Below the pieces are notes generated by a model, which did not search any database, had not been told where the DNA came from, and worked only from the letters and a program-made list of their open reading frames with translations. The translations under genes and the position numbers were made by a program. Shown here piece by piece: positions 18,904 through 39,210 of a stretch of 64,000 bases of DNA (position 1 is the stretch's first letter; each line of letters begins with the position of its first letter). The DNA is from Methylotenera sp. (lineage in GTDB: Bacteria; Pseudomonadota; Gammaproteobacteria; Burkholderiales; Methylophilaceae): positions 1 through 64,000 of the forward strand of contig NZ_JAUXOY010000012.1 of NCBI RefSeq assembly GCF_030684185.1. Reading direction: 5' to 3'.

Positions 18904-21513
18904 TTAGTGATTTGCTATTTCAGCGATTGGTATCACCTTTTTGCCTGTGCTTAAAGTATCAAGCGCCGCCTTATACTCGGTCATTTGGTCAAAGTTTAGA
19001 TACTTATAAATTTCAGCAGTATTAGCCAGTTTATTACCGACTGTTTCCAAATATTCTGCATGGGTTGGCATGCGGCCAAGCTTCGCGCAAACTGCCGCCA
19101 ATTCAGCTGAACCTAAATAAACACGAGCGTCTTTGCCCATGCGGTTGTCAAAGTTACGGGTACTGGTAGAGAACACAGTCGCTTTATCTGCCACGCGTGC
19201 TTGATTACCCATGCATAAAGAACAACCAGGTATTTCTGTTCTTGCACCCGCCACACCAAAAACTGAATACACCCCTTCATCACGTAATTGTGCTTCATCC
19301 ATGCGTGTCGGCGGCGCAATCCATAAGCGTGTTGGAATGCTGCCAGAGCCTTCAAGCACTTTAGCCGCAGCACGATAATGGCCGATATTGGTCATGCAGC
19401 TGCCAATAAACACTTCATCAATCTTGTCACCTACTACTGCTGATAATGGTTTGATGTCGTCAGGGTCGTTCGGGCAAGCCACTAATGGTTCTTTGATTTC
19501 GCTCAAATCAATTTCAATGATATGCGCATACTCTGCATCGGCATCCGGTTTTAATAATTCCGGCTTAGCGAGCCATGCCTGCATGTTCTCAATACGACGT
19601 TGCAAGGTACGGGCATCCTCGTAACCATTTTCAATCATATTCTGCATCAGTACGATATTTGAATTGAGGAACTCAATCACTGGCTCTTTGTTTAACAGCA
19701 CGGTACAGCCATTCGCAGAGCGCTCTGCGGAGGCATCCGCAAACTCAAACGCCTGCTCTACTTTTAAATCCGGCAAGCCTTCAATTTCTAAAATACGACC
19801 ATTAAATACGTTTTTTTTGCCTTGTTTGCCTACGGTTAGATTACCTTCCTGAATGGCCGCGTAAGGGATTGCGTTGACCAAATCACGTAAAGTAATGCCC
19901 GGCTGCATGGTGCCTTTAAAGCGAACCAATACTGATTCTGGCATATCCAGAGGCATCGCGCCTGTTGCAGCGGCAAATGCCACCAAACCAGAACCCGCTG
20001 GAAAAGAAATACCAATCGGAAAGCGTGTATGAGAGTCGCCGCCGGTACCTACGGTATCCGGCAAGATCAATCTGTTAAGCCATGAGTGAATCACGCCGTC
20101 GCCTGGACGTAGTGAAACGCCGCCTCGGCTTGACATAAATTCTGGTAGCTCATGCTGTAATTTAATATCAACAGGTTTTGGATAAGCGGCGGTGTGACAG
20201 AAACTCTGCATGACCAAGTCGCTGCTAAAACCCAAACAGGCCAACTCTTTCAACTCATCACGTGTCATACCGCCAGTCGTATCTTGCGAACCTACCGTCG
20301 TCGCTTTTGGTTCGCAATATGTGCCTGGACGCACTCCTTCGCCTTCAGGCAAACCGCACGCACGACCGACCATTTTTTGCGCCAACGTATAGCCTTTGCT
20401 AGAAACAATGGATGGCGTAGCTTTAATAAAAACATCCGTTTCATTTAGTCCTAACGCTTTACGTGCATTTGCAGTTAAACCGCGACCAATAATCAACGGA
20501 ATGCGCCCGCCAGCACGTACTTCATCTGGCATGGTAACTGGGTTAAGCTCAAAGCTTGAGATAACTTCGCCAGTCTCGTTCAGCACTTTTCCTTCATACG
20601 GTTGAATCACAATCACATCACCCGTACTCATTTTTGACACGTCGCATTGAATCGGCAGAGCACCTGAATCTTCCGCTGTGTTAAAGAAAATAGGCGCAAT
20701 TTTAGCGCCCAAGATTACACCGCCGGTGCGCTTATTCGGAATATTAGGAATGTCATTACCCATAAACCACTGCACTGAGTTGATGGCAGATTTACGTGAT
20801 GAGCCTGTACCCACCACATCGCCTACATACGCAAGCGGTAAGCCTTTTTGCTTTAGTGTATCGATTAGTTTTAAGCCATCTGGCATTTTATTTACGAGCA
20901 TGGCTTTAGCATGTAACGGAATATCAGGGCGGCTCCACGCGTCCTGCGCCGGACTTAAGTCGTCGGTATTCGTCTCGCCATCCACCTTAAATACCACCAT
21001 TTTAATTTCTTTAGCCAACACTGGCGCATTGGTAAACCATTCGGCATTTGCCCAAGATTCAATGAGCTTTTTAGCATGCAAATTACCCGATTTCATCAGC
21101 ACATCCACATCGTGAAATGCATCGAACATAAGGATTGTGCTGCTTAATGCTTCTACAGCATGGGCTGCCATAGGGGGATTTGAATTAGACAAGTCAAGTA
21201 AAGAAACTAAAGCTTGCACGTTGTACCCACCAAGCATCGTACCTAACAGTTCTACCGCTTTTTCAGGTGAGATTAAGGGGGACTTAGCTGTGCCTTTAGC
21301 AATGTCTGACAGAAATGCGGCTTTAACATAGGCTGCCTGATCGACGCCTGCTGGCGTGCGATTGGCAATTAAATCAACGAGCGTTTCCGCCTGACCTGCT
21401 GGCGGATTTTTAAGTAACTCGACTACTTGGGCAACTTGCTCAGCAGTTAAAGGTAATGGGGGTAATTGGAGGGCGGCACGTTCTTGCACGTGCGCTGCAT
21501 AGGCTTTTAACAT
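18904..21513 (-). CDS. acnB: Aconitate hydratase B / 2-methylisocitrate dehydratase
   Basis: Iron-sulfur hydratase interconverting citrate and isocitrate. AcnB also hydrates 2-methyl-cis-aconitate to 2-methylisocitrate. The 869 residues match AcnB, with the N-terminal HEAT-like domain ([15 protein letters not shown]), swivel domain and catalytic core. Cluster cysteines are visible in [14 protein letters not shown] and [12 protein letters not shown]. With prpD, prpB and prpC on the other arm of the island, and no AcnD/PrpF seen, it is the likely third enzyme of the methylcitrate cycle. Confidence 0.96.
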
Positions 21514-21619
21514 GGTGGTTTGCGTCTTTAAGTTTGGTTAAATGATTCGTTGTAATTATACAACCAGCTCAAAACACATGGCGCTTGCACCCATGTAAAT
21601 TTTAAATTAGTTGTGTTAT

Positions 21620-21952
21620 CTATATGCCGTTATCTATATACAAATCTTTGGCAAATGGCGTACTGCAACTTTTGCCTTTAGCCGAGGCTTCCATTCTATC
21701 TAGCACGTCTTTTTCATAGCCTTTGCCGTGCTTTAGTTCTAAAAATGCCCGCACTTCATATACATCTGCAAAGCCGTTTTTATCTGTGTCCATCGCCGCC
21801 ACGTTGTCTTCAACGGTAGGCCCTGTGTATCGGCCATCTTTATCAGTAAGATAACCCAACACATCATCAGCACTTACAGCCGTTACGATTAAAAATGAAC
21901 CCACCAAAACAACCAGCTGCGATATACGTCTAAACATTTTATTTGCACTCAT
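21620..21952 (-). CDS. Small exported EF-hand protein
   Basis: The 110 residues start at ATG 21952, chosen for the AGGA site eight bases upstream. A signal peptide spans about 1-28 (RRISQLVVLVGSFLIVTAVSA). One canonical EF-hand loop, DTDKNGFADVYEV, has Asp/Asp/Asn/Asp/Glu at calcium positions. A C-terminal Cys lies in KGKSCSTPF. It sits between fumarase and acnB without obvious link to their metabolism. Function is unknown; calcium binding is predicted only. Confidence 0.7.
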   Translation of the reverse strand: MSANKMFRRISQLVVLVGSFLIVTAVSADDVLGYLTDKDGRYTGPTVEDNVAAMDTDKNGFADVYEVRAFLELKHGKGYEKDVLDRMEASAKGKSCSTPFAKDLYIDNGI

Positions 21953-22064
21953 GATTAACATCCTCAAGACTTTCCAGTGAGACTGATATTAAAACAAATA
22001 GTGCAATGGTTACTGTGACTAATGACACATAGTTTAAATTATTATGGACTAAATTTTCATGCGT

Positions 22065-23621
22065 CTAATTTACAGGTCTTATTTCAACAACTTTATGTTG
22101 CGCAATCTTGGCTTTCCATTCTTCTGGGCCTGTGGTGTGAACTGATACACCTTTGCTATCTACCGCCACCGTTACAGGCATATCTTGCACGGTAAACTCA
22201 TAAATCGCTTCCATCCCCAAGTCAGCAAAGGCAAGCACTTCTGCTTTTTTAATGGCTTTGCTGACCAAATAAGCTGCGCCGCCAACGGCGGTTAAATAGA
22301 CCGATTTGTATTTTGCAATCGTGGTTATTGTTTCATCGCCGCGTTCAGCTTTGCCCACCATGCCCAACAACCCGGTTTGGCCTAACATCATCTCTGTGAA
22401 ACCATCCATACGCGTTGCAGTGGTTGGACCTGCTGGCCCTACCGCCTCATCTCGAACTGCATCTACCGGCCCTACGTAATAAATAAAACGGTTTTGAAAA
22501 TCTACAGGCAATTTTTCCCCTTTTGCCAACATGGTAGCAATGCGTTTATGCGCAGCATCGCGGCCTGTGAGCAATTTCCCACTGAGCAGCAAAGTTTGGC
22601 CGGGCCGCCAAGTCTGAATATCGGTCTGAGTAATTGTATCTAAATTCACCCGCAATGAAGCTTCACTTGGTGCCCAATGCACACCGGAAGAATTGATCAG
22701 GTTCCAATCATTCAAATCTGGCGCTTCCAGTTCCGCTGCACCACTTCCATCCAACTCAAAATGCACATGACGCGTGGCAGCGCAGTTAGGAATAATTGCT
22801 ACGGGCAAGCTGGCCGCATGCGTTGGATAATCCAGAATCTTCACATCCAACACCGTCGCTAAACCGCCCAAGCCTTGGGCGCCTATACCTAAATTATTCA
22901 CTTTTTCAAAAATCTCCAAACGCAATTCTTCTATTCTACTGAGCGCTTCATTATTCCGGCCTTTTGCTTTCAGTTCGTGCATATCAATCGGCGCCATGAG
23001 CGACTCTTTAGCCAACAGTACTGCTTTTTCCGCAGTACCGCCTATACCGATACCCAACATGCCAGGTGGGCACCACCCTGCACCCATTTGGGGCACAACT
23101 TCCAAAACCCAATCTACAATACTGTCATTCGGATTCAACATTACCAGCTTGGCTTTATTCTCCGAACCGCCGCCTTTTGCTGCGATACTCACCTCAACTT
23201 TGTCACCTGCCACCAGTGAAACATGTACCACTGCAGGCGTGTTGTCCTTAGTATTGGTGCGCATTCCAGCGGGATCACTTACAATAGAAGCGCGTAATTT
23301 ATTTTCTGGTAGCATGTAAGCACGATGCACACCTTCATTCACCATTTGCTCAATATCAAGTACTGCATCCCATTGAACATTCATGCCTACTTTAACGAAA
23401 GCAACAACAATGCCAGTATCCTGACAAAGTGGGCGCTTGCCTTCTGCACACATGCGAGAATTGGTTAAAATCTGTGCAATGGCATCCTTAGCAGCAGGGG
23501 ATTGTTCCGCCTCGTAAGCACGACCTAAAGCCTGAATATAATCAACCGGATGGTAATAGGAAATATATTGCAAGGCATCAGCGATGCTTTGAATGAAGTC
23601 AGATTGCTTGATGGTCGTCAT
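22065..23621 (-). CDS. Fumarate hydratase, class I (iron-sulfur)
   Basis: Converts fumarate to malate. The 518 residues match the single-chain class I fumarase. Cluster-type cysteines occur in RPLCQDTG, AGWCPPGMLGIGIGG and IPNCAATRH, and the C-terminal beta domain contains RDAAHKR and GPAGPTTATRMDGF. A TAAGGTAAAA site precedes ATG 23621. It lies 17 bases downstream of the acyl-CoA ligase gene, so probably the same operon, and links succinate dehydrogenase to malic enzyme. Confidence 0.95.
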   Translation of the reverse strand: MTTIKQSDFIQSIADALQYISYYHPVDYIQALGRAYEAEQSPAAKDAIAQILTNSRMCAEGKRPLCQDTGIVVAFVKVGMNVQWDAVLDIEQMVNEGVHRAYMLPENKLRASIVSDPAGMRTNTKDNTPAVVHVSLVAGDKVEVSIAAKGGGSENKAKLVMLNPNDSIVDWVLEVVPQMGAGWCPPGMLGIGIGGTAEKAVLLAKESLMAPIDMHELKAKGRNNEALSRIEELRLEIFEKVNNLGIGAQGLGGLATVLDVKILDYPTHAASLPVAIIPNCAATRHVHFELDGSGAAELEAPDLNDWNLINSSGVHWAPSEASLRVNLDTITQTDIQTWRPGQTLLLSGKLLTGRDAAHKRIATMLAKGEKLPVDFQNRFIYYVGPVDAVRDEAVGPAGPTTATRMDGFTEMMLGQTGLLGMVGKAERGDETITTIAKYKSVYLTAVGGAAYLVSKAIKKAEVLAFADLGMEAIYEFTVQDMPVTVAVDSKGVSVHTTGPEEWKAKIAQHKVVEIRPVN

Positions 23622-23638: not shown

Positions 23639-25288
23639 TTATCTAGATGATTTGGCGTAAGCAATTGTATTGTTAATGTCTTTGCGCAAAATTTTACCAT
23701 TTTTAGTTCTTGGAAAATCTTTAGTGAGATACACGGTTTTCGGGGTTTTGTATGCTGCCAAATGCTGTTTACCAAAAGCTAACAGCTCATCTGCAGTCAC
23801 TTTAGAATTCGGTTGCAGAATCACGTAAGTCACCACAAGCAGCTTGTCTTTTTCAAGCTCCTCCCCGACTGTCGCGCAATCTGCCACCGCAGGGTGTGAT
23901 TTATACACACGCTCAATTTCATAGGGAGAAACACGGTAACCAAAGCTTTTGATAATGTCGTCTTTACGGCCTAAAAACCAGATATATCCATCTTCATCAT
24001 AACGTGCATAATCCCCTGAAAAGAACCAGCCGTCATGTTTATATTTTGCAGTTTCTTCATCTAAATTCCAATAGCGTAAAAACAAGCCCGGATCAGACTC
24101 CGGCACGCTAATCATGCCTTCTTCACCTTGTGCAACTTCTTCTAAGGTCTCAGGATTGAGCAATTTAATCGCGTGTCCGGGTTGAGGAAAACCAGCCGAG
24201 CCTGCACGAATCGGACGGAATATACTTTGGCTTAAATAGTAAGAAAACTCACTCATACCCACCGCCTCATAAATATCCCGGCCGAAGCGCTCTCGCCATT
24301 GCTGCAATACCTCATCGGACAAGTGCTCACCTGCACTCATGCAGTGGCGTAAGCTTGGCACATCAGCCTGCACAGCTTTTGATTTTTGTATGATTTGACG
24401 ATAAATGGTAGGTACGCCTACAAAAATAGTGGCTGAGTGCTTGGCTATTAAGCGCGTCCATAAATCAGCATCGTTTTTGCCTTCATGCACAATCACAGTT
24501 TTTCCCAAATACAAAGGGTCCATCAATCCTGAACCTAACACATAGGTCCAGTTGAACTTACCTGAATGCATGATGCGGTCTTGCGAACTCGCATCAAAAT
24601 TAAACCAGTATTGTGAAGCTGGCTCACGGCCTATCAAAGCACGGTGCGCATGCAGCACACCTTTAGGGTAACCAGTCGTACCCGAGGTGTAGACCAGATA
24701 GGCAGGATCATCCGCAGCGGTTAAATATGCCGGTGAACAGGTTTGAATTGTCGATAGCTGTGATTCTAAATCGTACACAATTAAAGTAGCGTGCGATGCA
24801 ATTTCGCCTACGCCCGATAAAAAAACATGCTTCAAATTCGGCAAACCGGATAGATGATCCTGCAATGAAGGCCATGCTGCTTTATCTGTCACTAATACAG
24901 CAGCGCCAGAATCTCGCGCCAAATAGGCTACTTCTTCGGCAGTGAGTAATGTTGAAGTTGGCACTGAAATTGCGCCGCGTTTCATCGCTCCCAAAAAAGC
25001 CGTTGGATAATCCAGATTATTGGGTAAACGGATTAGCACACGTTCGCCCGCTTCCACATTCAGGTTTCTAAGCAATTGTGCAAATTGATTGGTGCGTTTC
25101 GCCAATTGCTCAAAAGTAATTTGCGAAGTGCCTTGCACGTCATCTTCCACTATCATCGCAATTGTGGCTGCTGCTGTTGTATTCAGATGCTTATCAGTAC
25201 ACGCAACACCAATATTAAAGTGTTTTGGAACGCTCCATTTCCACTCATTAAATGGTTCAAATTTGGGAAATTGTTCAAGTTTTTGCAT
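23639..25288 (-). CDS. AMP-forming acyl-CoA synthetase, substrate unknown
   Basis: Activates a carboxylic acid to its CoA thioester using ATP. The 549 residues have the adenylation motif YTSGTTGYPKGVLH, the A5-type SAGEHLSDEV, WFFSGDYARYDEDGY and the catalytic Lys in RTKNGKILRKD near the C-terminus. The length and sequence resemble benzoate/medium-chain acyl-CoA ligases more than PrpE, which is about 630 residues. From position next to a CitE-like lyase and the methylcitrate genes it could activate propionate, mesaconate or a related acid. A GAAGG site precedes ATG 25288. Confidence 0.85.
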   Translation of the reverse strand: MQKLEQFPKFEPFNEWKWSVPKHFNIGVACTDKHLNTTAAATIAMIVEDDVQGTSQITFEQLAKRTNQFAQLLRNLNVEAGERVLIRLPNNLDYPTAFLGAMKRGAISVPTSTLLTAEEVAYLARDSGAAVLVTDKAAWPSLQDHLSGLPNLKHVFLSGVGEIASHATLIVYDLESQLSTIQTCSPAYLTAADDPAYLVYTSGTTGYPKGVLHAHRALIGREPASQYWFNFDASSQDRIMHSGKFNWTYVLGSGLMDPLYLGKTVIVHEGKNDADLWTRLIAKHSATIFVGVPTIYRQIIQKSKAVQADVPSLRHCMSAGEHLSDEVLQQWRERFGRDIYEAVGMSEFSYYLSQSIFRPIRAGSAGFPQPGHAIKLLNPETLEEVAQGEEGMISVPESDPGLFLRYWNLDEETAKYKHDGWFFSGDYARYDEDGYIWFLGRKDDIIKSFGYRVSPYEIERVYKSHPAVADCATVGEELEKDKLLVVTYVILQPNSKVTADELLAFGKQHLAAYKTPKTVYLTKDFPRTKNGKILRKDINNTIAYAKSSR

Positions 25289-25340: not shown

Positions 25341-26504
25341 TTACAGTATCGCTCCATACGGCCAGTTTTGACGTATTACCTGTGCTGGCAATAGCTCAAG
25401 CACATGCAACGCAAAATCCTTGTCATCAGGGGTGATTGCGCGTAATGCATGCGCGCGTAACAAGGTCTGCAATGCTTTACCAAACATTGGCGGGTCTAGC
25501 ATTTCACCCTCAAACTTAATTGCGCCGCCGTGTAATGCGTCGGCTTCAATCGCCGCTTTAAGGATGCGAACCTTTTGGTTTACATCAGTGGGCGAAGGCG
25601 TATAAGCCGTTTTACACAAATGAATGTGGCCTGGGTGTATCACCTGCTTGCCGGTCAAACCCATCGCAGCTTCTTGGCAAGCGTGTTTATAGACGATACG
25701 TGACTCATTATCACCATGTAGATCCAGCCATCGACGCACATCATGCGGCTCAACAAATTTTTCAGGCATGATATTGGCGCCTATCAAGGTTTCAACACCG
25801 CCAATTACGCCTTTACCCGCAATACGTGCCTCAAACATCAGTTGATTCATATAGAACTGCAACTCCTCAATCCAGTGTTCAGGCGTGATGTGTATTCCCA
25901 TCGCTTTTGAAAAGTCATGAATACCGAACACTACGTGCTTCACTGTGCTGTATTGCATCAACTCAGGCGCAATTTTGAGCGACTTCGGATGCTCGATAAT
26001 CGGCTGTATCGTAATATTGGGGTTAATATCAATTAAAAAGCTGGATAAATCCCGTACTTCAGCTGCACCATAAGCCTCGCCCGCTTTAGCAAGCATCACC
26101 ACATCAATACAATCAGACATGTCACTGACCAACTGCATGTCTAATTCGTATTCATCTGTACGAAATGAATTAGATCTAATGGCAATCGTGACATCTTTGT
26201 TGACTTTACGAAGCTCTGGCAATTCCTGGCGCAACAAATCTCGGCTCATTTCTTTTTGACGACAGCCATCTTCAAGGTCAAAAATTAAGGTATGCGCATT
26301 GGTATTATGTGCATGTTTTCTCATACGTGCAGCGGCCTGCGCCACATCCTCATAAATACCCAGCGCAGGTGAGTATTTAACTGGCGGGTAATATAACTGT
26401 ATACCGGGCCAATTCTCACCGAGCATAGCGCTATTGGTATAGCACTTGATTTTGCCGTGGTTATTAATGCCTAAATCAGCTACATTATGATGTGTGTCAT
26501 TCAT
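25341..26504 (-). CDS. HpcH/HpaI aldolase / CitE-superfamily CoA-ester lyase (long form)
   Basis: Predicted Mg-dependent lyase cleaving a beta-hydroxyacyl-CoA such as malyl- or citramalyl-CoA. The 387 residues keep the superfamily marks FDLEDGC, the metal ligands Glu in PIIEHPKSL and Asp in GIHDFSKAMG, and VIHPGHIHLC near the C-terminus. It has an extra C-terminal stretch of about 80 residues relative to ordinary CitE. It sits between sdhE and the acyl-CoA ligase in one leftward run. It is one of three such lyases in this island; the substrate is unresolved. Confidence 0.82.
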   Translation of the reverse strand: MNDTHHNVADLGINNHGKIKCYTNSAMLGENWPGIQLYYPPVKYSPALGIYEDVAQAAARMRKHAHNTNAHTLIFDLEDGCRQKEMSRDLLRQELPELRKVNKDVTIAIRSNSFRTDEYELDMQLVSDMSDCIDVVMLAKAGEAYGAAEVRDLSSFLIDINPNITIQPIIEHPKSLKIAPELMQYSTVKHVVFGIHDFSKAMGIHITPEHWIEELQFYMNQLMFEARIAGKGVIGGVETLIGANIMPEKFVEPHDVRRWLDLHGDNESRIVYKHACQEAAMGLTGKQVIHPGHIHLCKTAYTPSPTDVNQKVRILKAAIEADALHGGAIKFEGEMLDPPMFGKALQTLLRAHALRAITPDDKDFALHVLELLPAQVIRQNWPYGAIL

Positions 26505-26539: not shown

Positions 26540-26845
26540 CTAGCCATTAATTTCTTCATTAACACTTAATTTAGTCAACACGCTTTGCATTGCTAAAGCA
26601 TCTAATTGCTTAGCAGTTAAAACGTCAATACTCGTAAACTTTATTCTTGATGTCACCACATCTAAAAATTCGTTATCAGGCAAATCCAGCAAACTATCAA
26701 AAGCCAGCAACTCTTGAGCACTTAAAGTTGCCAAGTGGTTTTCGGAAAAACGTTGCAACACAATATCCAGCTCAAGTAAGCCACGTCGACAGCGCCAGCT
26801 CAAGCGGCGCACCTCTTCTTCTGTCATGCTTTTCTTATCACCCAT
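26540..26845 (-). CDS. sdhE: Succinate dehydrogenase assembly factor SdhE
   Basis: Promotes covalent flavin attachment to SdhA. The core RRGLLELDIVLQ carries the family RGxxELD motif. Start choice: ATG 26845 gives 101 residues with GAGA upstream; ATG 26827 gives 95 with a GGTGAT site and is equally possible. An ATG at 26866 has no ribosome-binding site. It follows sdhB closely, as usual in betaproteobacteria. Confidence 0.9.
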   Translation of the reverse strand: MGDKKSMTEEEVRRLSWRCRRGLLELDIVLQRFSENHLATLSAQELLAFDSLLDLPDNEFLDVVTSRIKFTSIDVLTAKQLDALAMQSVLTKLSVNEEING

Positions 26846-26885
26846 TTGCGTCTCTAAGAACCACATTTACTTTTAATTGCACCAG

Positions 26886-27626: not shown

Positions 27627-27693
27627 GGTGATGTCTCTATTCAATGCACTTTGTTAATACGCACGTGTTCAGGTTAATACACAAGTGTTTAGG

Positions 27694-29525: not shown

Positions 29526-29870
29526 TTAAACCAATAAGAGCCACAAGACCCAAGCCAAATAAATCCACAGCAACACAACCAAAATATTTTGCAATACGCG
29601 CTGTACAACATAGTTAGGCACATAGTCTTTAAATACATCCCGTATGCCTAACCAGGCATGCATGGACAACGCCAGCCAAAATATCAAACTAGCGATACGC
29701 CACCAGATGGGTTGGAAAAAACTCACCCACGCCTCGTAATTTTCTGGCTGGATGATGAAAAATCTTAACAATGCAACAATGCTATAAATTGCCATCACAA
29801 GACCGGTAAGTCTTTGTGTTAACCAAGCACGCATGCCTGGGTAGCGTTCTGTTAAAAGTTCGATCAGCAT
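29526..29870 (-). CDS. sdhD: Succinate dehydrogenase membrane anchor subunit
   Basis: Small hydrophobic anchor of 114 residues with three TM helices, starting at ATG 29870 (MLIELLTERYPGMRAWLTQR). An upstream start at 29918 would run into sdhC and is rejected. The Arg/His-containing segment SMHAWLGIRDVFKDYVP in helix 2 is typical of quinone/heme binding in SdhD. It begins five bases after sdhC ends. Confidence 0.92.
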   Translation of the reverse strand: MLIELLTERYPGMRAWLTQRLTGLVMAIYSIVALLRFFIIQPENYEAWVSFFQPIWWRIASLIFWLALSMHAWLGIRDVFKDYVPNYVVQRVLQNILVVLLWIYLAWVLWLLLV

Positions 29871-29874
29871 CTTG

Positions 29875-30311: not shown

Positions 30312-31520
30312 TTATTTAGCCTGTTGCAATCTGGCCGCATCCGCAACCGCACCTGACACGCGCGCTAGCAGGCGCTTATCGAATGGTTTTGGAATAATAT
30401 AATCCTTACCGAAACTCAGGCTCGTTAAGTTATAGGCTTGCAGTACATCGGCTGGCACAGGCTCACGCGCCAGTGCTGCCAAAGCGCATGCTGCAGCTAT
30501 TTGCATTTCATCAGTAATTTGCTTAGCCTTAGCATCCAACGCGCCACGGAACAAATATGGGAAGCACAAAGCGTTATTCACTTGGTTTGGGAAATCCGAA
30601 CGGCCAGTCGCCATTAAAATATCGTCCCGTACTGCATGCGCAAGGCTTGGCAGTATTTCAGGGTCCGGATTCGCCAGCGCAAATACCACCGGGTTGGCTG
30701 CCATCAGTTTAAGCAATTCTGGTGACAAGGTATTAGCCGCTGAAACACCAATAAACACATCGGCTTGCGGCATCACATCTGCCAAGGTTTTAGCAGCACT
30801 CGGCACTACAGCTAAATGGCGGTTATTGTCATGCAAGTCAGCGCGTGAGGTATCCAACACACCAGACTTATCCACCATAGTGATATTGGTAGCGCCCATC
30901 AATTTAAGCAATCTTGCACAAGAACAACCTGCTGCACCTGCGCCTAAAAATACGATTTTTGCAGTTGGTAAGGTTTTACCTTGCAGTTCTAAAGCATTCG
31001 ACAGTGCAGCGGCGACAATCACTGCCGTTCCGTGCTGATCATCATGAAATACTGGAATATCCAAACGTGCACGCAATTCTTTTTCAATTCTAAAACAATG
31101 CGGCGCGGCAATATCTTCCAGATTGATACCGCCAAAAGTTGGCGCGATATTCACCACTGTTTCGATAAATGCTTCAATAGTTGGTGCATTCACTTCAATA
31201 TCAAACACATCAATGCCGGCAAAATGCTTAAATAAAACCGCTTTGCCTTCCATGACAGGCTTACTGGCAAGCGGCCCCATATTGCCAAGCCCAAGCACAG
31301 CCGTGCCATCAGTAATGACTGCCACGAGATTGCCTTTATTAGTGTATTTGTACGCATTGGCCGGATCACGATTAATTTCACGCACCGGTACCGCAACGCC
31401 TGGTGTATAGGCTAAAGACAAATCGTCCTGAGTAGCACACGGTTTAGATGATTCAACTGAGAGTTTTCCTGGTTTAGGAAACTCATGGTAATCAAGTGCG
31501 CGTTTTTTTAGATCATCCAT
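30312..31520 (-). CDS. Malic enzyme, short form
   Basis: Decarboxylates malate to pyruvate with NAD(P) reduction. At 402 residues it covers the malic and NAD-binding domains (SLAYTPGVAVPVREI, GNLVAVITDGTAVLGLGN, FLGAGAAGCSCARLL) but lacks the C-terminal phosphotransacetylase-like domain of MaeB, which is about 760 residues. Short malic enzymes are known. Here it occupies a place next to sdhC where many betaproteobacteria, as I recall, have malate dehydrogenase. Cofactor preference cannot be read reliably. Confidence 0.93.
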   Translation of the reverse strand: MDDLKKRALDYHEFPKPGKLSVESSKPCATQDDLSLAYTPGVAVPVREINRDPANAYKYTNKGNLVAVITDGTAVLGLGNMGPLASKPVMEGKAVLFKHFAGIDVFDIEVNAPTIEAFIETVVNIAPTFGGINLEDIAAPHCFRIEKELRARLDIPVFHDDQHGTAVIVAAALSNALELQGKTLPTAKIVFLGAGAAGCSCARLLKLMGATNITMVDKSGVLDTSRADLHDNNRHLAVVPSAAKTLADVMPQADVFIGVSAANTLSPELLKLMAANPVVFALANPDPEILPSLAHAVRDDILMATGRSDFPNQVNNALCFPYLFRGALDAKAKQITDEMQIAAACALAALAREPVPADVLQAYNLTSLSFGKDYIIPKPFDKRLLARVSGAVADAARLQQAK

Positions 31521-31575: not shown

Positions 31576-31676
31576 GTGCTTTTCAAAATTGAATTTGGCA
31601 AGGCGGACGAGTGAAGACAGTACGCATAGTACGGCGAGCGAAATCCAACACCGCCAAAATCAATTTTCAAAAGCAC
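31576..31676. repeat. 101-bp inverted-repeat element between mae and gntR
   Basis: Outer arms of 24 bases (31576-31599 and 31653-31676) are inverted with two mismatches. The interior contains GTGAAGACAGTACGCATAGTA and GGCGAGCG, itself partly palindromic around ACGCATAGT. The right end reaches the last base of the gntR frame. It resembles a small dispersed palindromic element and may act as a terminator/attenuator between gntR and the malic enzyme operon. Confidence 0.6.
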
Positions 31677-32413
31677 TATTCAAGCTCATTCATGTAATGG
31701 TGATTATCTGTCACACACAAACCCAGCCGCCATTCCATGGGTTTGTCGCCATAAGTGAACGATACGCGCTCTATACTCAATAGCGGCTCACCTTCTTTTA
31801 AGCCCAGCGCTTTTGCCACTTCACCTTTAGCCGCCACGGCCTTTAGCCTCTCTTCTGCACGTATCATACGCACACCAAATTCCGACTCATACATGCTATA
31901 CATAGAACCATTATTTTCTTCTACACGGCTACCATTTAAGCCTTTGAATGGAGCCGCAGGGACAATGATGTGATCAAAAATCAGCGGCCTGCCTGAAAAC
32001 GTGAGCAAGCGCTTTATTTCAATGGTCGAAGCACCCGCCTTTAAATCTAAAACCTGCCCCATGCGCACATCAGCCTTGCCTTTGGTGCATGAAATAAACT
32101 CGTTCTGCAATAATTCTTTTTGACCATCTACCGAAGTCAGCCTTAAAAAGCGCAGCTTCATACCCTCAGCACTATGCGTTGCCACAAAAGTACCTTTTCC
32201 TTGACGACGTATAAGAATGTTTTCTGTAGCAAGCGCATCGATTGCTTTTCTAACCGTGCCCTGACTGACTTTATAGCGGCCGGCCAACTCAACCTCACTC
32301 GGAATCATATCGCCTGGGCGCCATTCCCCACCAATCAAGCTTTGCGTCAGCAGCACTTTAATTTGATCATAAAGCGGCTTATAACTTGGCGAGTTGTAAT
32401 GTTTGTCTATCAT
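31676..32413 (-). CDS. GntR/HutC-family regulator (UTRA domain)
   Basis: Repressor-type transcription factor of 245 residues. The N-terminal winged helix (PGDMIPSEVELAGRYKVSQG, TVRKAIDALATENIL) spans about 8-75, and a C-terminal UTRA effector domain spans about 95-240 (RLLTFSGRPLIFDHI, EEPLLSIERVSF-like segment GEPLLSIERVSFTYGDKP). It is divergent from the citE-mch-prpBCD block and upstream of mae-sdh, so it probably controls both arms. Its ligand is unknown; a CoA ester, methylcitrate or another organic acid is plausible. Confidence 0.88.
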   Translation of the reverse strand: MIDKHYNSPSYKPLYDQIKVLLTQSLIGGEWRPGDMIPSEVELAGRYKVSQGTVRKAIDALATENILIRRQGKGTFVATHSAEGMKLRFLRLTSVDGQKELLQNEFISCTKGKADVRMGQVLDLKAGASTIEIKRLLTFSGRPLIFDHIIVPAAPFKGLNGSRVEENNGSMYSMYESEFGVRMIRAEERLKAVAAKGEVAKALGLKEGEPLLSIERVSFTYGDKPMEWRLGLCVTDNHHYMNELE

Positions 32414-32542: not shown

Positions 32543-32567
32543 ATATCTTATATAAGACATAAGATAT
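32543..32567. promoter_or_regulatory. Palindromic operator candidate overlapping citE promoter region
   Basis: ATATCTTAT (32543-32551) and ATAAGATAT (32559-32567) are exact inverted arms, and TCTTATATAAGA (32546-32557) is a perfect palindrome nested inside. The site ends four bases before a -35 box, a typical place for a GntR-family operator. Confidence 0.6.
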
Positions 32568-32637: not shown

Positions 32638-33519
32638 ATGACCCAATACTTTCGCCCGCGCCGATCCATGCTTTACGTGCCAGGCTGCAACACGCACTAC
32701 CTTGAGCGCGCACGTACACTGCATGCCGATTCGGTTATCCTTGATTTAGGTGACCCCATCCTGGTGGAATGCAAGGAAGAATCGCGCGACAATGTAGTTC
32801 GCTTTGTAAATGAGGGCGGCTATGGCTCGCGTGAAGTTGTAGTGCGAGTGAATGATTTAATTTCGCAATGGGGTCCAGATGACATTGCGGCCGTCGCAAA
32901 AACTAAAGTGGATGCGGTGTTGTTCCCTAACATTGAATCGCGTGAAGATGTGCTGACAGCGCTTTCACTGCTTGATGCTGCCGGCGGCAGTCATTTGCCC
33001 ATTATGGTGATGATAGAAAGCCCGATTGCAGTGCTTAATGCCAAAGAAATTGCCAGTGCATCAGACCGTATCGTATGTATTGTAATGGCAACTTCAGACT
33101 TGATTTCTCAGTTACATGCTCGTGTAACCCATGAGCGCTCTGCAATTTTAACTTCACTTTCTCTGGTTATTTTAGCGGCACGCGCCTATGGCCACGCAGT
33201 GGTTGACGGCATCACCAGCGATTTCAAAAACATGCATTCATTTGAGTATGCATGCCGCTTGGGCCGCGACATGGGCTTTGATGGAAAGTCGCTTGTGCAC
33301 CCTGCCCAATTGGCTTATAGCAACGATGCTTATACGCCACAAGCAACTGAGGTTAACCATGCTCGCGAAATCATTGCTGCGCTTAAAACGGCTAACGAAG
33401 CTGGCAAAGGCACGGTTGTGGTTAACGATAAACTTGTTGAACGCCATCACGTCAGGGCAGCAGAGCGATTATTAAAATTAAGCGATATGATCAAAACCTT
33501 GGAAGAGAGCCATGTCTAG
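32638..33519 (+). CDS. CitE-superfamily CoA-ester lyase with altered DLED motif
   Basis: The 293-residue HpcH/HpaI-type lyase or thioesterase resembles malyl-CoA/CitE-like proteins (RPRRSMLYVPGCNTHYLERA, VVVRVND, LVHPAQL). The metal ligands Glu in VMIESPIAV and Asp in ATSDLISQL are kept. The usual LDLEDAV reads LDLGDPI, losing a conserved Glu. It could be a beta-methylmalyl-CoA or malyl-CoA lyase, a malyl-CoA thioesterase, or an enzyme with shifted activity. It opens the rightward operon; its stop overlaps the mch start by eight bases. Confidence 0.82.
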   Translation: MTQYFRPRRSMLYVPGCNTHYLERARTLHADSVILDLGDPILVECKEESRDNVVRFVNEGGYGSREVVVRVNDLISQWGPDDIAAVAKTKVDAVLFPNIESREDVLTALSLLDAAGGSHLPIMVMIESPIAVLNAKEIASASDRIVCIVMATSDLISQLHARVTHERSAILTSLSLVILAARAYGHAVVDGITSDFKNMHSFEYACRLGRDMGFDGKSLVHPAQLAYSNDAYTPQATEVNHAREIIAALKTANEAGKGTVVVNDKLVERHHVRAAERLLKLSDMIKTLEESHV

Positions 33520-34594
33520 CACCCTAAATAAAATTAGTAATGGAAACTTCTTTGAGGATTTCCAGCTCAATCAGGTCATTCATCACGCAACACCCCGCAC
33601 CATTGGTGAAGGTGAAGTAGCTTTGTATATTGCTTTAACAGGCACTCGACAAGTATTGCACTCTGCCGACACCGTCGCCCAGTCACTTGGCTACAACACC
33701 AGACCTGTTGATGATTTACTGGCTTTTCATATTGCCTTTGGCAAAACTGTACCTGACATTTCTGTGAATGCAGTGGCCAATCTGGGTTATGCAGACGTAC
33801 GCTTTTTACACCCTGTTTATATTGGCGATACGCTTAGCACCAGTTCGACCGTTATAGGATTGAAACAAAACTCCAACGGAAAATCTGGTGTGGTTTATGT
33901 GCGTTCAATTGCTATCAATCAACTACAGCAACCCGTATTTTCATGGGTGCGCTGGGTCATGATTCATAAAAACAATTTTAATACCCCAGCGCCAGACGCA
34001 GTTGTACCAAGCTTACCAAGCCATGTTCCTGTTGAAGAATTAAGTGTGCCCGGCTTTCTGGATGCAAGGAAATTCAACACCGCAGTCACAGGTGGTCAGC
34101 ACCTATGGGATGACTATGCGGCTGGTGAGCGTATCAATCATCCCGCAGGTATAACTATCAGCGATAGTGACCATACACTTGCGACCAAGCTTTATCAGAA
34201 TAACGCCCGCTTACATTTTGACGATGTCATGATGAAAAAAACTGCGTTTGGGCGTCGCTTAATGTATGGCGGCCACGTCATTTCATTATGTCGCGCACTT
34301 TCACATGATGGATTGGAAAATGCACTTTCAATAGCTGCAATCAACGCAGGGTCACATTGCAATCCATCATTTGGCGATGACACTATTTACACATGGTCTG
34401 AAGTGCTTGATAAATGGGTAGTACCCAACAGAACAGACGTCGGCGCACTTAGATTGCGCATGGTAGGCGTTAAAAACATACCTGCAGATTCGCTTGCAAG
34501 CATGTACATCAGTAACGAAGGCAAACAAACCTATCACCCTAATGTGGTGTTAGACCTAGATTACACCGTGCTTATGCCACGGAAACCAGTTTAA
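33512..34594 (+). CDS. mch: Mesaconyl-CoA hydratase (beta-methylmalyl-CoA dehydratase)
   Basis: Reversibly hydrates mesaconyl-C1-CoA to beta-methylmalyl-CoA. The 360 residues form two MaoC-type hot-dog domains (about 15-160 and 200-350). Segments HATPRTIGEGEVALYIALTG, FGKTVPDISVNAVANLGYA, ENSNGKSGV-like NSNGKSGVVYVRS, YGGHVISLCRALS and GALRLRMVGVKN closely match the Rhodobacter/Methylobacterium Mch family as I remember it. Start ATG 33512 overlaps the upstream lyase gene. With a lyase it would yield propionyl-CoA plus glyoxylate, feeding the prp genes downstream. Confidence 0.88.
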   Translation: MSSTLNKISNGNFFEDFQLNQVIHHATPRTIGEGEVALYIALTGTRQVLHSADTVAQSLGYNTRPVDDLLAFHIAFGKTVPDISVNAVANLGYADVRFLHPVYIGDTLSTSSTVIGLKQNSNGKSGVVYVRSIAINQLQQPVFSWVRWVMIHKNNFNTPAPDAVVPSLPSHVPVEELSVPGFLDARKFNTAVTGGQHLWDDYAAGERINHPAGITISDSDHTLATKLYQNNARLHFDDVMMKKTAFGRRLMYGGHVISLCRALSHDGLENALSIAAINAGSHCNPSFGDDTIYTWSEVLDKWVVPNRTDVGALRLRMVGVKNIPADSLASMYISNEGKQTYHPNVVLDLDYTVLMPRKPV

Positions 34595-34615: not shown

Positions 34616-35617
34616 ATGGTAACTACACAGCAATTGGTTCACCCGAAAGACGCATTATTTAGCGGAGAAAAATCATTTCCTATCATTCCTTCTTGCGAGC
34701 ATTTTGCAGGAAGTGAAAAACTGATACTTAAAGCATTGTCTATGCAAGACACTATCGGGCCGGTATTTGATATTACCTGTGACTGTGAAGATGGCGCACA
34801 AGCTGGCCAAGAGCGTGGCCATGCTGAAATGATAGTGCGTGTGCTTACAAGTGAAGCGAATAAACACCAAATGGCTGGTGCGCGTATTCACGATTACACC
34901 CACCCGGCATGGAAACAAGATGTGGATATTTTGGTTGGCGGTGCAGGCCAGGTTTTGAGCTATATCACCATTCCAAAATGTACAAGCTACGCCCAAGCTA
35001 GCGAAATGATTGCCTACATTCAAAAAACGGCCACCTTCAATGGTATTGAGCGCGAAATTCCAGTGCATATTCTTATTGAAACACATGGTGCATTAAAAGC
35101 TGTGCATGAAATCGCTACTTTACCTTGGGTGCAAGTATTGGATTTTGGTTTGATGGACTTTGTCAGCGGTCATCATGGTGCGATTCCAGCTTCGGCAATG
35201 CGTAGCCCGGGACAGTTTGAACACCGCTTATTAGCCCGCGCCAAAGCTGAATTAGTCGCAGCAGCCCTGGCAAACGGCGTTGTGCCCGCGCACAATGTAA
35301 CGCTAGACCTTAAAAATGTAGACACAACACATTCAGATGCGTCACGCGCGCGTAATGAATTCGGTTTTTTACGCATGTGGAGTATTTACCCGACTCAAAT
35401 CGAGGCAATCGTCGATGCAATGAAACCAAATTTTGATGAAGTGCAAGATGGCGCCAATATTCTATTAGCAGCTCAAAAAGCCGATTGGGGGCCAATTCAA
35501 TACGATGGTGAATTGCATGATAGAGCAACTTATCGGTATTTCTGGGAAATCCTACAAAAAGCTAAACTCACTAAAGTGGCAATTCCCGCTGAAGCTGCTC
35601 AAGCTTTTTTCAGTTAA
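34616..35617 (+). CDS. HpcH/HpaI aldolase / malyl-CoA lyase-like protein
   Basis: The 333-residue CitE-superfamily lyase is distinct from the two others nearby. The N-terminal motif is ITCDCEDGAQ, the Arg loop GARIHD, and the metal ligands Glu in LIETHGALK and Asp in GLMDFVSGHHGAI. Placement between mch and prpB makes it the best candidate for beta-methylmalyl-CoA lyase (to propionyl-CoA plus glyoxylate), inferred from context. A TAGGA site lies eight bases upstream of ATG 34616. Confidence 0.8.
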   Translation: MVTTQQLVHPKDALFSGEKSFPIIPSCEHFAGSEKLILKALSMQDTIGPVFDITCDCEDGAQAGQERGHAEMIVRVLTSEANKHQMAGARIHDYTHPAWKQDVDILVGGAGQVLSYITIPKCTSYAQASEMIAYIQKTATFNGIEREIPVHILIETHGALKAVHEIATLPWVQVLDFGLMDFVSGHHGAIPASAMRSPGQFEHRLLARAKAELVAAALANGVVPAHNVTLDLKNVDTTHSDASRARNEFGFLRMWSIYPTQIEAIVDAMKPNFDEVQDGANILLAAQKADWGPIQYDGELHDRATYRYFWEILQKAKLTKVAIPAEAAQAFFS

Positions 35618-35653: not shown

Positions 35654-36538
35654 ATGACACAAGAAAACACTGCAGGCACACGTTTTCGCGCTGCCCTAAG
35701 CGCTGAGAAACCGCTACAAATTATCGGTGCAATCAATGCATATCATGCAATGCTCGCCACCCAAAGCGGCTTCAAAGCGCTTTATTTATCTGGTGGCGGC
35801 GTGGCTGCCGGCTCGCTTGGCTTGCCGGATTTAGGCATTTCAACACTTGAAGATGTATTGATTGATGTTCGCAGAATTACTGATGCGGTCGACACCCCTT
35901 TACTTGTAGACATTGATACAGGCTGGGGCGGCGCTTTTAATATCGCACGCAGTGTAAAAAGCATTGCAAAAGCCGGTGCAGCCGCGGTGCATATTGAGGA
36001 CCAAGTTTCGGCTAAACGTTGCGGCCATCGCCCAAACAAAGCGATTGTCAGTTTAGACGAAATGGTAGACCGCGTAAAAGCTGCTGTAGATGCAAAACCA
36101 TATGATGATTTTGTGGTGATGGCGCGTACTGATGCCTTAGCGGTTGAAGGCTTGCAATCTGCCATTGATCGCGCTTGTGCCTGTGTAGAAGCAGGGGCCG
36201 ACATGATTTTTCCCGAGGCGATAACTGAATTGAGTATGTATAAACAATTTGCCGCCGCCGTAAAAGTACCTGTGCTTGCCAACATTACCGAATTTGGCAG
36301 CACGCCATTATTTACCGTTGATGAGCTACGCGCGGCAGATGTCAGCATGGTGCTATACCCACTCTCTGCATTTCGGGCCATGAACCAAGCTGCACTTAAA
36401 GTCTATCAAGCTGTTAAACATGACGGCACTCAGCAAAATGTAATTGGCCTGATGCAAACGCGCGCCGATTTGTATGAACACTTGGGCTACCATGCCTTCG
36501 AACAAAAGCTCGATGAATTATTTAAAGGAGAAAAGTAG
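35654..36538 (+). CDS. prpB: 2-methylisocitrate lyase
   Basis: Cleaves 2-methylisocitrate to pyruvate and succinate, the last step of the methylcitrate cycle. The 294 residues match the PrpB/PEP mutase family. The active-site loop KRCGH has Cys123, the same position as in E. coli PrpB. Metal-binding segments VDIDTGWGG and HIEDQV are present. The prpB-prpC gap is two bases. Confidence 0.96.
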
Positions 36539-36540
36539 CA

Positions 36541-37716
36541 ATGTCCGCAACTACTCAAGCACCTACTCAAGCAATTGGCACAGAAACGCCTAAAAAGAAA
36601 AAAGGCGTTGCGCTTGCTGGCGTTTCAGCAGGCACAACCTCAATTTGTACGGTAGGTCATACCGGCAACGATTTGCATTATCGCGGTTACGATATTATAG
36701 AACTCGCTAAACATGCCACATTCGAAGAAGTTGCCTATTTGCTGATTCATGGAGAATTGCCGAACAAAACACAACTGACCGCTTACCACGCGAAGCTGAA
36801 AAAATTACGCGACTTACCCATCGCGCTAAAAAATGTACTGGAACAAATTCCAAAAAATACGCACCCGATGGATGTGATGCGAACTGGCTGTGCCATGTTG
36901 GGCACTTTAGAGCCTGAAACGGCAGATCGTAACACGCAAGCCGCGCAAGATTTAGGTGACCGATTGATTTCTTGCTTTGGCTCAATTTTACTGTACTGGT
37001 ATCACTTTAGTCACAATGGTAAGCGCGTCAATTTAGAAACAGACGATGATAGTATCGCCGCACATTTTTTACACGTATTACACAGCAAAGCACCCAGCCA
37101 ATTGCATATTGATGCAATGAACACTTCACTGGTGTTGTACGCAGAGCATGAATTCAATGCTTCTACATTTACCGCTCGAGTTATTGCTGGCACGCTATCA
37201 GACATGTATTCATGCATCACAGGTGCAATTGGCGCATTACGTGGCGCTAAACATGGCGGTGCAAATGAAGCCGCGATGGAAATCATAGAACGCTACAAAA
37301 ATGCCGATGAAGCCGAGGCAGACATTTTAGAGCGTATGGCACGTAAAGAAATCATCATTGGTTTTGGACATCCAGTCTACACCATTGCCGACCCTAGAAA
37401 TGAGTCAATAAAAGAAGTTAGCCGCAAGTTATGTGAAAATAGCGGCAATATGACGCTATTTAATGTTTCATCTCGCATTGAAGAAGTGATGTGGCGCGAG
37501 AAAAAAATGTTCCCTAACCTGGATTGGTACAGCGCCTCCAGTTATCACATGATGGGCATTCCTACCGGCATGTTCACGCCAATATTCGTGATTTCCCGCA
37601 CGACTGGATGGGTAGCACATGTCGTCGAGCAGCGTATTGACAACAAAATTATTCGCCCAAATGCGGAGTATATCGGCCCAGATAATCGTCCCTACGTATC
37701 TTTAGAGAAACGTTAA
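36541..37716 (+). CDS. prpC: 2-methylcitrate synthase
   Basis: Condenses propionyl-CoA with oxaloacetate. The 391-residue short (type II-like) citrate synthase has PrpC marks such as [17 protein letters not shown] and [15 protein letters not shown]; catalytic His residues lie in these segments, and the Asp is near the [14 protein letters not shown] region. An N-terminal extension of about 25 residues is Lys-rich ([19 protein letters not shown]). GGAG lies upstream. The prpBCD order matches known clusters. Confidence 0.95.
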
Positions 37717-37749
37717 TTTTCAAAATAATTCAATTAAAGAAAGCTCTGA

Positions 37750-39210
37750 ATGTCATCTCACATTTCCAACGTACGCCCCACCCCAGACCAAGTCATTGTC
37801 GACATAGCAAACTATGTGGCTGATTACGAAATAAAATCCGAAGAAGCATTTGACACTGCCCGTAACTGCTTAATGGATACATTAGGTTGCGGTTTTGAAG
37901 CTCTGGACTACCCAGCCTGCACCAAATTATTAGGCCCGGTGATTGCTGGTACAGTAGTGCCGAACGGTGCAAAAGTACCTGGCACTTCATACCAATTAGA
38001 CCCGATTTTGGCAGCTTTTAATATCGGTGCAATGATACGCTGGTTAGACTTTAACGATACTTGGCTGGCGGCCGAATGGGGTCATCCCTCTGACAATTTG
38101 GGTGGCATTTTGGCAACTGCCGACTACCTTTCACGCAAGAATGTAGCTGAAGGAAAAGCGCCATTGACCATGAAGGATGTTCTCACCGCCATGATTAAAG
38201 CACACGAGATTCAAGGTGTGTTAGCGCTGGAAAACAGTTTCAACCGCGTAGGATTAGACCACGTCATTTTAGTTAAAATCGCATCAACAGCGGTGGTGAC
38301 TAAATTACTAGGCGGCAATAAAGAAGATATCATCAATGCCGTTTCTAACGCGTTTGTAGACGGCCAAAGCTTGCGCACTTATCGCCATTCACCTAATACC
38401 GGCTCGCGTAAGTCATGGGCAGCAGGTGACGCAACAAGTCGTGCGGTACGTTTAGCATGGATGACCATGCAAGGTGAAATGGGTTACCCATCCGCACTCA
38501 CCGCAAAAACATGGGGCTTCTACGATGTGTTATTTAAAGGCAATGCGTTTAAATTTCAGCGCGGATACGGTTCTTACGTAATGGAGCAAATATTATTTAA
38601 AATCTCTTTCCCAGCTGAGTTTCATGCGCAAACCGCTGTAGAGTGCGCGATTCAATTGAATGCACAAATCGGCAATAAACTACAAACACTAGAACAAATC
38701 TCACAAATCGATAAAATCGTCATCACGACACATGAATCAGCAATCCGTATTATCGACAAAACCGGTCCGCTAGATAACCCAGCTGACCGCGACCATTGCA
38801 TTCAATACATGGCAGCGATTGGCTTGTTAAAAGGCAATTTAACCGCACAGGATTATGAAGATGCAGCAGCCGCTGACCCACGCATTGATGCGCTTCGCGA
38901 AAAAATGGTGTGTATTGAAAAGGCTGAATATTCAGCTGATTACCTGAATCCAGAAAAACGCTCGATTGCCAATGCGATTCAAGTGTTCTTTAAAGAAGGC
39001 TCAACATCAGAAAACATCGCCGTAGAATACCCTATCGGTCACCGCCGCCGCCGCAGTCAAGGCATACCAGAACTCGTAAAAAAATTCCAAGTAAATTTAG
39101 CACGCCGTTTTGATGCTAAAAAACAAGCGGATATTTTAGCTTTGTGTCTAAACCAAACTAAATTAGAAGCGACTTCTGTGAATACCTTTGTAGATATGTT
39201 GGTAGCTTAG
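37750..39210 (+). CDS. prpD: 2-methylcitrate dehydratase
   Basis: Dehydrates 2-methylcitrate to 2-methyl-cis-aconitate, which AcnB can rehydrate. The 486 residues match PrpD of the MmgE/PrpD family, with [40 protein letters not shown] and SFVDGQSL-like [20 protein letters not shown]. It is the last gene of the rightward operon; a repeat lies three bases beyond the stop. Presence of PrpD rather than AcnD/PrpF indicates the E. coli-type route. Confidence 0.96.

Follow-up and report, generated by a model that had tools for sequence, protein, structure and literature searches.

Which metabolite enters the gene block around the methylcitrate cycle (MCC) genes of Methylotenera, and what do the lyases, the MaoC-type protein and the acyl-CoA ligase encoded in this block contribute? 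We considered this question for a stretch of 64,000 nucleotides from Methylotenera sp. (the window: positions 1 to 64,000 of contig NZ_JAUXOY010000012.1, assembly GCF_030684185.1, a genome of 2.72 Mb that is 99.98% complete). Here, positions 18904-39210 hold two divergent gene runs, probably operons, with a 224-base gap and one common promoter region between them. The leftward run (minus strand) reads gntR, maeB, sdhC, sdhD, sdhA, sdhB, sdhE, lyC, lig, fumA, a small open reading frame (ORF) and acnB, and the rightward run (plus strand) reads lyA, mch, lyB, prpB, prpC and prpD, where lyA, lyB and lyC denote three CitE-like genes and lig the acyl-CoA ligase gene. We tentatively propose that together the two runs specify a citramalate cycle which the MCC completes, an acetyl-CoA (acetate) route that would replace the glyoxylate shunt.

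The block itself has already been published. It is identical with the MCC cluster of Methylotenera and Methylophilus (PMC4109929, PMC3728764), which is given in print as prpCBD, cyl1, maoC, cyl2, gntR, mdh, sdhABCD, cyl3, prpE, fum, can (PMC4109929). The cluster is described as strongly conserved and as present in genomes without 2-oxoglutarate dehydrogenase (PMC4109929). Its expression in situ is generally above that of the ribulose monophosphate pathway (RuMP) genes, with gntR among the most over-expressed, and the metabolite that it processes is called unknown (PMC3728764). What is new is the reading of the lyases, the MaoC protein and the ligase: in the excerpts of PMC4109929, cyl1-3 and maoC are given no function and the ligase is named prpE. 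A literature search of limited depth, and hence a weak negative, turned up no publication that combines citramalate reactions with the MCC in these organisms.

An earlier reading of the window from its letters alone (the original prediction) had called the mch/lyase module less described, which holds for its function but not for the block, in print with its lyases and maoC. The genes that it named (mch, CitE-types, prpBCD, acnB, sdh, fumarase, malic enzyme, ligase and a GntR regulator) are all present in divergent arrangement, confirming its observation. Its interpretation, a line from mesaconyl-CoA through the MCC and C4 acids to pyruvate, is partly supported and is extended here: the line fits the genes, but it amounts to half of the route that we propose and left the source of mesaconyl-CoA open. 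That source probably lies inside the same block, and lyC, lig and the class I fumarase gene, which had been left outside the module, are likely to constitute the supply of mesaconyl-CoA.

The proposed citramalate-methylcitrate cycle

In the proposed cycle LyC would condense acetyl-CoA and pyruvate to citramalyl-CoA, and LyA or another thioesterase would hydrolyse the thioester to citramalate. Class I fumarase acting as a mesaconase would convert citramalate to mesaconate, which the lig product would activate to mesaconyl-C1-CoA. Mch would hydrate this ester to beta-methylmalyl-CoA, and LyB would split the latter into glyoxylate and propionyl-CoA. PrpC, PrpD, AcnB and PrpB could then turn propionyl-CoA and oxaloacetate into succinate and pyruvate, returning the carrier, and Sdh and fumarase would take succinate to malate. 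Glyoxylate and acetyl-CoA would give malyl-CoA and then malate (by LyB or LyC, with LyA), malic enzyme would provide pyruvate for gluconeogenesis, and the regulator SdhR would switch the gene set. A stoichiometry script closes this scheme as acetyl-CoA plus oxaloacetate to glyoxylate plus succinate at the cost of one ATP converted to AMP; it likewise yields malate from 2 acetyl-CoA when the malyl-CoA/thioesterase branch is included, and adding malic enzyme and pyruvate dehydrogenase gives full oxidation. Given the proposed roles of LyC, fumarase and the ligase, every gene of the block except the small ORF would find a place. The sequence itself establishes the enzyme families, the gene order, the operator and the co-occurrence, whereas the direction, the mesaconase step and the substrates of LyA, LyB, LyC and the ligase are inferred.

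The first half of this scheme corresponds to the citramalate cycle proposed in 1997 for Rhodospirillum rubrum and since questioned (reviewed in PMC8307300), which leads from acetyl-CoA and pyruvate over citramalate, mesaconate, mesaconyl-CoA and beta-methylmalyl-CoA to glyoxylate and propionyl-CoA. The R. rubrum scheme relies on a CoA-transferase for mesaconate and reaches succinyl-CoA by the methylmalonyl-CoA pathway, whereas in the window thioester hydrolysis plus a ligase would take the place of CoA transfer, and the methylcitrate cycle that of the methylmalonyl-CoA arm; in the excerpts of PMC8307300 the methylcitrate route is mentioned only among the general fates of propionyl-CoA. With rather less assurance than for the window itself, we suggest that this is a genetically encoded cycle of acetyl-CoA assimilation (and of oxidation via malic enzyme and pyruvate dehydrogenase) in which pyruvate would be the carrier, a ligase and a mesaconase would stand in for CoA-transferases, and the MCC for methylmalonyl-CoA mutase. 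It may be common to RuMP methylotrophs (Methylotenera, Methylophilus and Methylophaga), to the Gallionellaceae and to one more family of this order (f23).

Co-occurrence and gene neighbourhoods

Among 300 genomes sampled at the level of the order, 19 contain mch and 15 lyC, all 15 inside those 19. For this count mch was required to show at least 50% identity, which kept 19 of the 83 genomes matching at E <= 0.001 and dropped 64 with weak MaoC matches alone. The lig gene adjoins lyC in all 15 lyC-positive genomes, each of which also carries prpB and prpC. Within the window's family these genes come together or not at all, since the six genomes without mch are also without lyC, lyB and any PrpB-type hit.

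The 15 lyC-positive genomes fall into three kinds of neighbourhood. Genes were called there by longest open frame, such that unlabelled ORFs are not gene calls, and at some f23 loci tblastn was used to locate lyA or lyC within a longer open frame. The full block is seen in the window, in G282 and in G191, the last with acsA and mqo inserted between lyA and gntR; this insertion is mixed, as it also holds a 469-aa ORF without assignment and a gene for aspartate decarboxylase. The compact kind brings together lyC, lig, lyA, mch and lyB, and prpBCD lie at a separate site (L034, L035, L037 and L038, with prp at L107-L110). In the f23 kind lyA-mch-lyB-prpB-prpC stand opposite sdh-gltA-sucA in 7/8 genomes, and lyC-lig form a second locus that in 8/8 is divergent from the gene for acetyl-CoA synthetase (AcsA; at L099 974 bits to TIGR02188, cut-off 725). 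There, a gene of the TIGR00645 family and fumA follow lyC-lig in 7/8, and in G152 fumA lies ~10 kb away. A 1135-aa ORF after fumA in L099 was set aside as Mfd, an unrelated neighbour.

A wider survey covered the best 80 of 239 lyC loci. Among these, 51 share the window's order, lyB-mch-lyA // gntR // maeB-sdh-lyC-lig, which argues against chance as the cause of that order. Seven are of a Gallionellaceae type consisting of the five-gene core and the regulator and nothing more, seven are of a Methylophaga type (prpDCB-lyB-mch-lyA // gntR // maeB-lyC-lig), and 15 are partial, most of them at a contig end. In the Methylophaga type lig is followed by ppsR-ppsA, the latter for phosphoenolpyruvate (PEP) synthase, in 5/5 loci reaching far enough (family matches for two, tblastn for all five), and in the lyC-positive genome G251 (L108) PpsR and PEP synthase genes come after prpBCD-prpE.

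Some further arrangements were noted in passing. Two loci of family f29 (L045 in G075 and L046 in G029) have CaiB/BaiF-type genes near mch, with another CitE-like protein beside mch at L045, and both genomes contain isocitrate lyase and malate synthase. The complete Methylotenera-type block is also found, at 84-96% identity, in a record titled Sulfuritalea sp. (L113), which may be mislabelled or wrongly binned. CitE-like relatives of lyB stand in the tricarboxylic acid (TCA) cycle/MCC neighbourhood of many genomes of the order, and at L082, L085, L087-L093, L095 and L096 such relatives, without mch, lie beside a related gntR, often with an SdhR-type operator.

A common operator

The gntR gene (31676-32413) encodes a GntR/HutC-type regulator with GntR and UTRA domains (PF00392 and PF07702). 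Between the two runs, at 32546-32557 and with no strand assigned, lies the operator core TCTTATATAAGA, the sole site in the 64 kb when at most one mismatch is allowed. The published SdhR motif is TCTTATGTCTTATATAAGACATAAGA (PMC4494728, citing Suvorova 2012); the window operator matches its right arm, CATAAGA, exactly and its left arm at 5/7 positions. Given that the operator core beside gntR equals the core of the published palindrome, the regulator is most likely SdhR. Within upstream regions of at least 150 bases, the exact operator was found upstream of lyA in 76/82 cases, of gntR in 82/87 and, where lyC has its own locus in f23, of lyC in 7/8; Markov shuffles (20 per region) gave zero exact sites. 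The common operator ties lyC and lig of f23, and possibly acsA, to the mch-prp locus. Together, co-occurrence, neighbourhood and the common operator link lyC and lig to mch.

Pathways missing from genomes with lyC

Isocitrate lyase scores above cut-off in 1/15 lyC-positive genomes (G022) as against 152/300 overall (Fisher p = 3e-4, a test that ignores the relatedness of the genomes). In the window genome TIGR01346 gives a weak match at prpB only, below cut-off, and PF01274 (malate synthase) gives none, so that neither enzyme of the glyoxylate shunt was found there; malate synthase is also without a match in the other lyC-positive genomes outside f23 (seven with the window's). Methylophilaceae are described as lacking the serine cycle, the ethylmalonyl-CoA pathway and the glyoxylate shunt (PMC6794327). 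Of the eight f23 genomes seven were seen without isocitrate lyase.

The original prediction had named ethylmalonyl-CoA pathway genes and a mesaconate CoA-transferase as things to look for. Crotonyl-CoA carboxylase/reductase (Ccr; TIGR01751) is above cut-off in none of 25 genomes, the window's included, and the ethylmalonyl-CoA pathway was rejected on this ground as the source of mesaconyl-CoA. A search for the CaiB/BaiF CoA-transferase family (PF02515) gave no match at E <= 1e-20 for the same seven genomes outside f23, and for these the CoA-transferase route of the 3-hydroxypropionate bi-cycle was rejected. Furthermore, the methylmalonyl-CoA mutase family is unmatched in 14/15 lyC-positive genomes, the window's among them (the exception is G191), leaving the MCC as the propionyl-CoA sink seen. 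A role as a patch for missing 2-oxoglutarate dehydrogenase was rejected as a general rule, as sucA is present in G014 and at 7/8 f23 loci.

Mch and the three CitE-like proteins

The mch product (33512-34594) aligns over nearly its full length with structure 4E3E (437 bits), which we take to be a Chloroflexus protein, and with 8HGN (365 bits), deposited as 'beta-methylmalyl-CoA dehydratase'. It has 50% identity with a Ruegeria homologue and a weak match to the haloarchaeal model. By this full-length similarity it is a homologue of the bacterial mesaconyl-C1-CoA hydratase (beta-methylmalyl-CoA dehydratase).

The HpcH_HpaI matches of the whole window genome are LyA, LyB and LyC, and no others. 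The 'three CitE-type lyases' of the original prediction thus stand as three CitE-like genes, but LyA appears thioesterase-like by its lid residue, giving two putative lyases plus one. Among solved structures LyA (32638-33519) is nearest to malyl-CoA lyases. The lid position is Asp throughout the superfamily except in the malyl-CoA thioesterase group, where it is Glu (PMC3832036); LyA has Glu268, a Glu in 80/80 retained hits (residue counts here and below are from hits with at least 85-90% coverage and without stops, catalytic positions being assigned by motif). The lid Glu recurs in LyA homologues of Ruegeria, Rhodococcus and Methylobacterium (plasmid records). These three retain LEDA/LEDG as the Glu-Asp pair that holds the Mg2+ waters, whereas LyA has LGDP, in which Gly38 replaces the usual Glu (Gly in 77/80, Glu in 3/80). 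With the lid Glu present but Gly in this place, LyA is classed as Mcl2/(3S)-malyl-CoA-thioesterase-like and not as Mcl2. The Ruegeria homologue of LyA (41%) is encoded near that of Mch and sdhC, sdhD and sdhA genes.

LyB (34616-35617) belongs with 3QQW (527 bits) and 3R4I (379 bits), named by their depositors 'putative citrate lyase' and 'citrate lyase' and given just as CitE-like in the excerpts of PMC3832036. The CitE-like catalytic set E58, D59, R90, E155, D181 and D302 is found in 76/76 hits, and in G011, where the locus has no lyA, lyB adjoins mch. A role as beta-methylmalyl-CoA (and malyl-CoA) lyase is predicted. LyC (25341-26504) is a distant CitE relative with a subfamily of its own, showing 71-80% identity across the other 14 lyC-positive genomes; 119 plasmid records searched for close relatives all fell below 60% identity. 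Its catalytic residues are intact: E78, D79, E171, D197 and D337 are invariant among 85 hits, and R110 is invariant in the 15-genome alignment but outside the invariant list of the 85. A role as (S)-citramalyl-CoA lyase is proposed.

The ligase and class I fumarase

The lig product (23639-25288) is an AMP-forming acyl-CoA ligase, for which we suggest a role as mesaconate-CoA ligase. Its score is under the curated cut-off of each of the 25 models shown and is best on models other than PrpE. This bears on a decidedly improbable alternative, the original prediction taken strictly, in which mch and a lyase would feed the MCC from mesaconyl-CoA of unknown origin, with lyC, lig and fumarase unrelated and lig a propionate-CoA ligase, 'prpE'. 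That is its annotation in print (PMC4109929), and the gene order is compatible. Yet a PrpE above its cut-off adjoins prpBCD in the lyC-positive genomes G291 and G251, lyC always accompanies mch (15/15), even where lyC-lig sit at another locus, and the lack of a Ccr above cut-off tells against the same reading.

The fumA gene (22065-23621; PF05681/PF05683) is the single PF05681 copy in the window genome, in which class II fumarase has no match at E <= 1e-20. Mesaconase activity is possible for class I fumarases (PMC4682846), and the position of fumA after lyC-lig in f23 favours such a role; the window enzyme may double as a mesaconase.

Direction of the proposed cycle and points against it

A forward direction, from acetyl-CoA, is suggested by the neighbouring genes for AcsA, Mqo, malic enzyme and PEP synthase, as well as by the MCC as sole propionyl-CoA sink seen together with the equilibrium of Mch, which lies toward beta-methylmalyl-CoA (PMC5592240). 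The reverse, which we consider unlikely, would start from glyoxylate and propionyl-CoA and pass through beta-methylmalyl-CoA, mesaconyl-CoA, mesaconate, citramalate and citramalyl-CoA to acetyl-CoA and pyruvate, as in the second half of the 3-hydroxypropionate bi-cycle. Its purpose could be glyoxylate salvage, for instance in the Gallionellaceae, which are autotrophs; the seven loci of the Gallionellaceae type carry just the five-gene core and the regulator. The Mch enzymes of Rhodobacter and Chloroflexus run in opposite directions (PMC5592240), and the Chloroflexus lyase works efficiently in the direction of citramalyl-CoA cleavage (PMC3832036). However, a reverse route is at odds with the unmatched CaiB/BaiF family outside f23, the adjoining MCC would compete for propionyl-CoA, no glyoxylate source was seen in the cluster, and the acetyl-CoA synthetase and PEP synthase neighbours suit a route starting at acetyl-CoA.

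Several observations weigh against the proposed cycle, the strongest being that citramalyl-CoA synthesis is unfavourable and that the substrate of LyB is uncertain. For the Chloroflexus malyl-CoA lyase, citramalyl-CoA synthesis is reported only with a high excess of pyruvate, and the Ala before the Mg2+ Asp is 100% conserved in both malyl-CoA lyase (MCL) groups (PMC3832036). This residue is Ser in LyA (79/80), Met in LyB (76/76) and His in LyC; for want of the Ala none of the three is classed as MCL, and with Met in its place propionyl-CoA binding by LyB is doubtful. The Glu replaced by Gly in LyA is called absolutely conserved (PMC3832036), the AlphaFold model of LyC has a mean pLDDT of 59 and was not used, and the Mch of haloarchaea catalyses dehydration faster than hydration (PMC5592240). 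Class I fumarase occurs in 25/25 genomes, with or without lyC, and is ruled out as proof of a mesaconase; being universal there and the sole fumarase found in the window genome, it need not be a mesaconase by virtue of its position in the block. With malate synthase in 8/8 f23 genomes and sucA at 7/8 f23 loci, the module is not merely a patch for missing enzymes, and G022 combines lyC with isocitrate lyase. The 20 kb inspected at the compact loci L035, L037 and L038 and at the f23 locus L104 contain no operator, and 9/13 lyB loci without mch do have one, so that the operator does not by itself define the pathway. Finally, lyB relatives occur in 84/300 genomes, 67 of them without mch, and at the 13 loci of this kind examined gntR is near in 11 and acnB, prpC or prpD in six.

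Such loci lend some support to the alternative to which we assign the least probability, a housekeeping function in which the CitE-like proteins and the thioesterase would clear dead-end CoA esters (malyl-, citramalyl- and methylmalyl-CoA) that side reactions of the TCA cycle and the MCC produce. It would not account for a set of five genes that includes Mch and a dedicated ligase, for the co-occurrence, or for the linkage to AcsA.

Published expression data bear on another reading, which we regard as quite unlikely: that the block serves catabolism of external C5 dicarboxylates (mesaconate, citramalate, itaconate or methylsuccinate), with lig activating the acid, Mch/LyB and fumarase/LyC splitting it, and the MCC clearing propionyl-CoA. 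The dicarboxylate would be an unnamed substrate in situ or in dissolved organic matter (DOM). Methylotenera expresses its MCC genes highly in situ (PMC3728764), and OM43 strain NB0046 on high-molecular-weight DOM raises its MCC genes along with a HpcH/HpaI aldolase and a CoA ligase that have neighbouring locus tags and rise about tenfold from deplete to DOM conditions (Table 1 of PMC5120137). From their names and tag numbers we infer that these two may be lyC and lig. In the same excerpts acnB is not in step with the other MCC genes and sdh is so only weakly, a further point against the cycle proposed here. In disagreement with C5 catabolism, the NCBIfam and Pfam scans revealed no transporter among the window cluster genes with a family match, and the AcsA link of f23 would play no part in it.

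Remaining genes of the block

The methylcitrate cycle enzymes each lie above their curated cut-offs: prpB, methylisocitrate lyase (35654-36538; TIGR02317, 430 bits, cut-off 354), prpC, methylcitrate synthase (36541-37716; NF009006, 674 bits, cut-off 550), prpD, methylcitrate dehydratase (37750-39210; TIGR02330, 859 bits, cut-off 458), and acnB, aconitase B/2-methylisocitrate dehydratase (18904-21513; TIGR00117, 1481 bits, cut-off 1287). Succinate dehydrogenase is encoded by sdhC (29875-30303; PF01127), sdhD (29526-29918; PF01127), sdhA (27694-29472; PF00890, PF02910) and sdhB (26886-27644; PF13085, PF13183), followed by the flavinator gene sdhE (26540-26866; PF03937, 68 bits). The maeB gene (30312-31520; PF00390, PF03949) encodes a malic enzyme of 402 aa that scores 528 bits on the NADP-type model NF009501 (cut-off 1178), covering profile positions 7-401 of 764, the first half only.

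The small ORF (21620-21967, 115 aa), without NCBIfam or Pfam match, is probably outside the pathway; by eye it has a hydrophobic N-terminal start and an EF-hand-like stretch, DTDKNGFADVYEV. Three genes beyond acnB, at 16640-17182 on the plus strand, lies a gene for a TIGR00645 (HI0507-type) membrane protein (194 bits), a family also found between lig and fumA at the f23 lyC loci L097-L101, L103 and L104; it is a possible membrane partner of the pathway.

Related systems and implications

The predicted route shares components with three further systems. With the second half of the ethylmalonyl-CoA pathway (Rhodobacter, Methylobacterium) it has in common Mch, a malyl-/beta-methylmalyl-CoA lyase and a malyl-CoA thioesterase, and Ruegeria shows the Mcl2-like-Mch-sdh neighbourhood; it differs in the lack of a Ccr above cut-off and, in the window genome, of a mutase-family match. 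As in the glyoxylate half of the 3-hydroxypropionate bi-cycle (Chloroflexus, Accumulibacter), Mch and CitE-like lyases would link glyoxylate and propionyl-CoA with acetyl-CoA and pyruvate, but the window has a ligase and class I fumarase in place of a CaiB/BaiF match, and the MCC is attached. The haloarchaeal methylaspartate cycle likewise leads from mesaconate over mesaconyl-CoA to glyoxylate and propionyl-CoA, though with an Mch of another line.

If the proposed cycle is correct, the substrate of the MCC cluster would be acetyl-CoA, and 'obligate' methylotrophs would carry a multicarbon pathway. The citramalate cycle would gain a defined set of genes open to direct assay, and acetyl-CoA assimilation without isocitrate lyase and the ethylmalonyl-CoA pathway would be explained.

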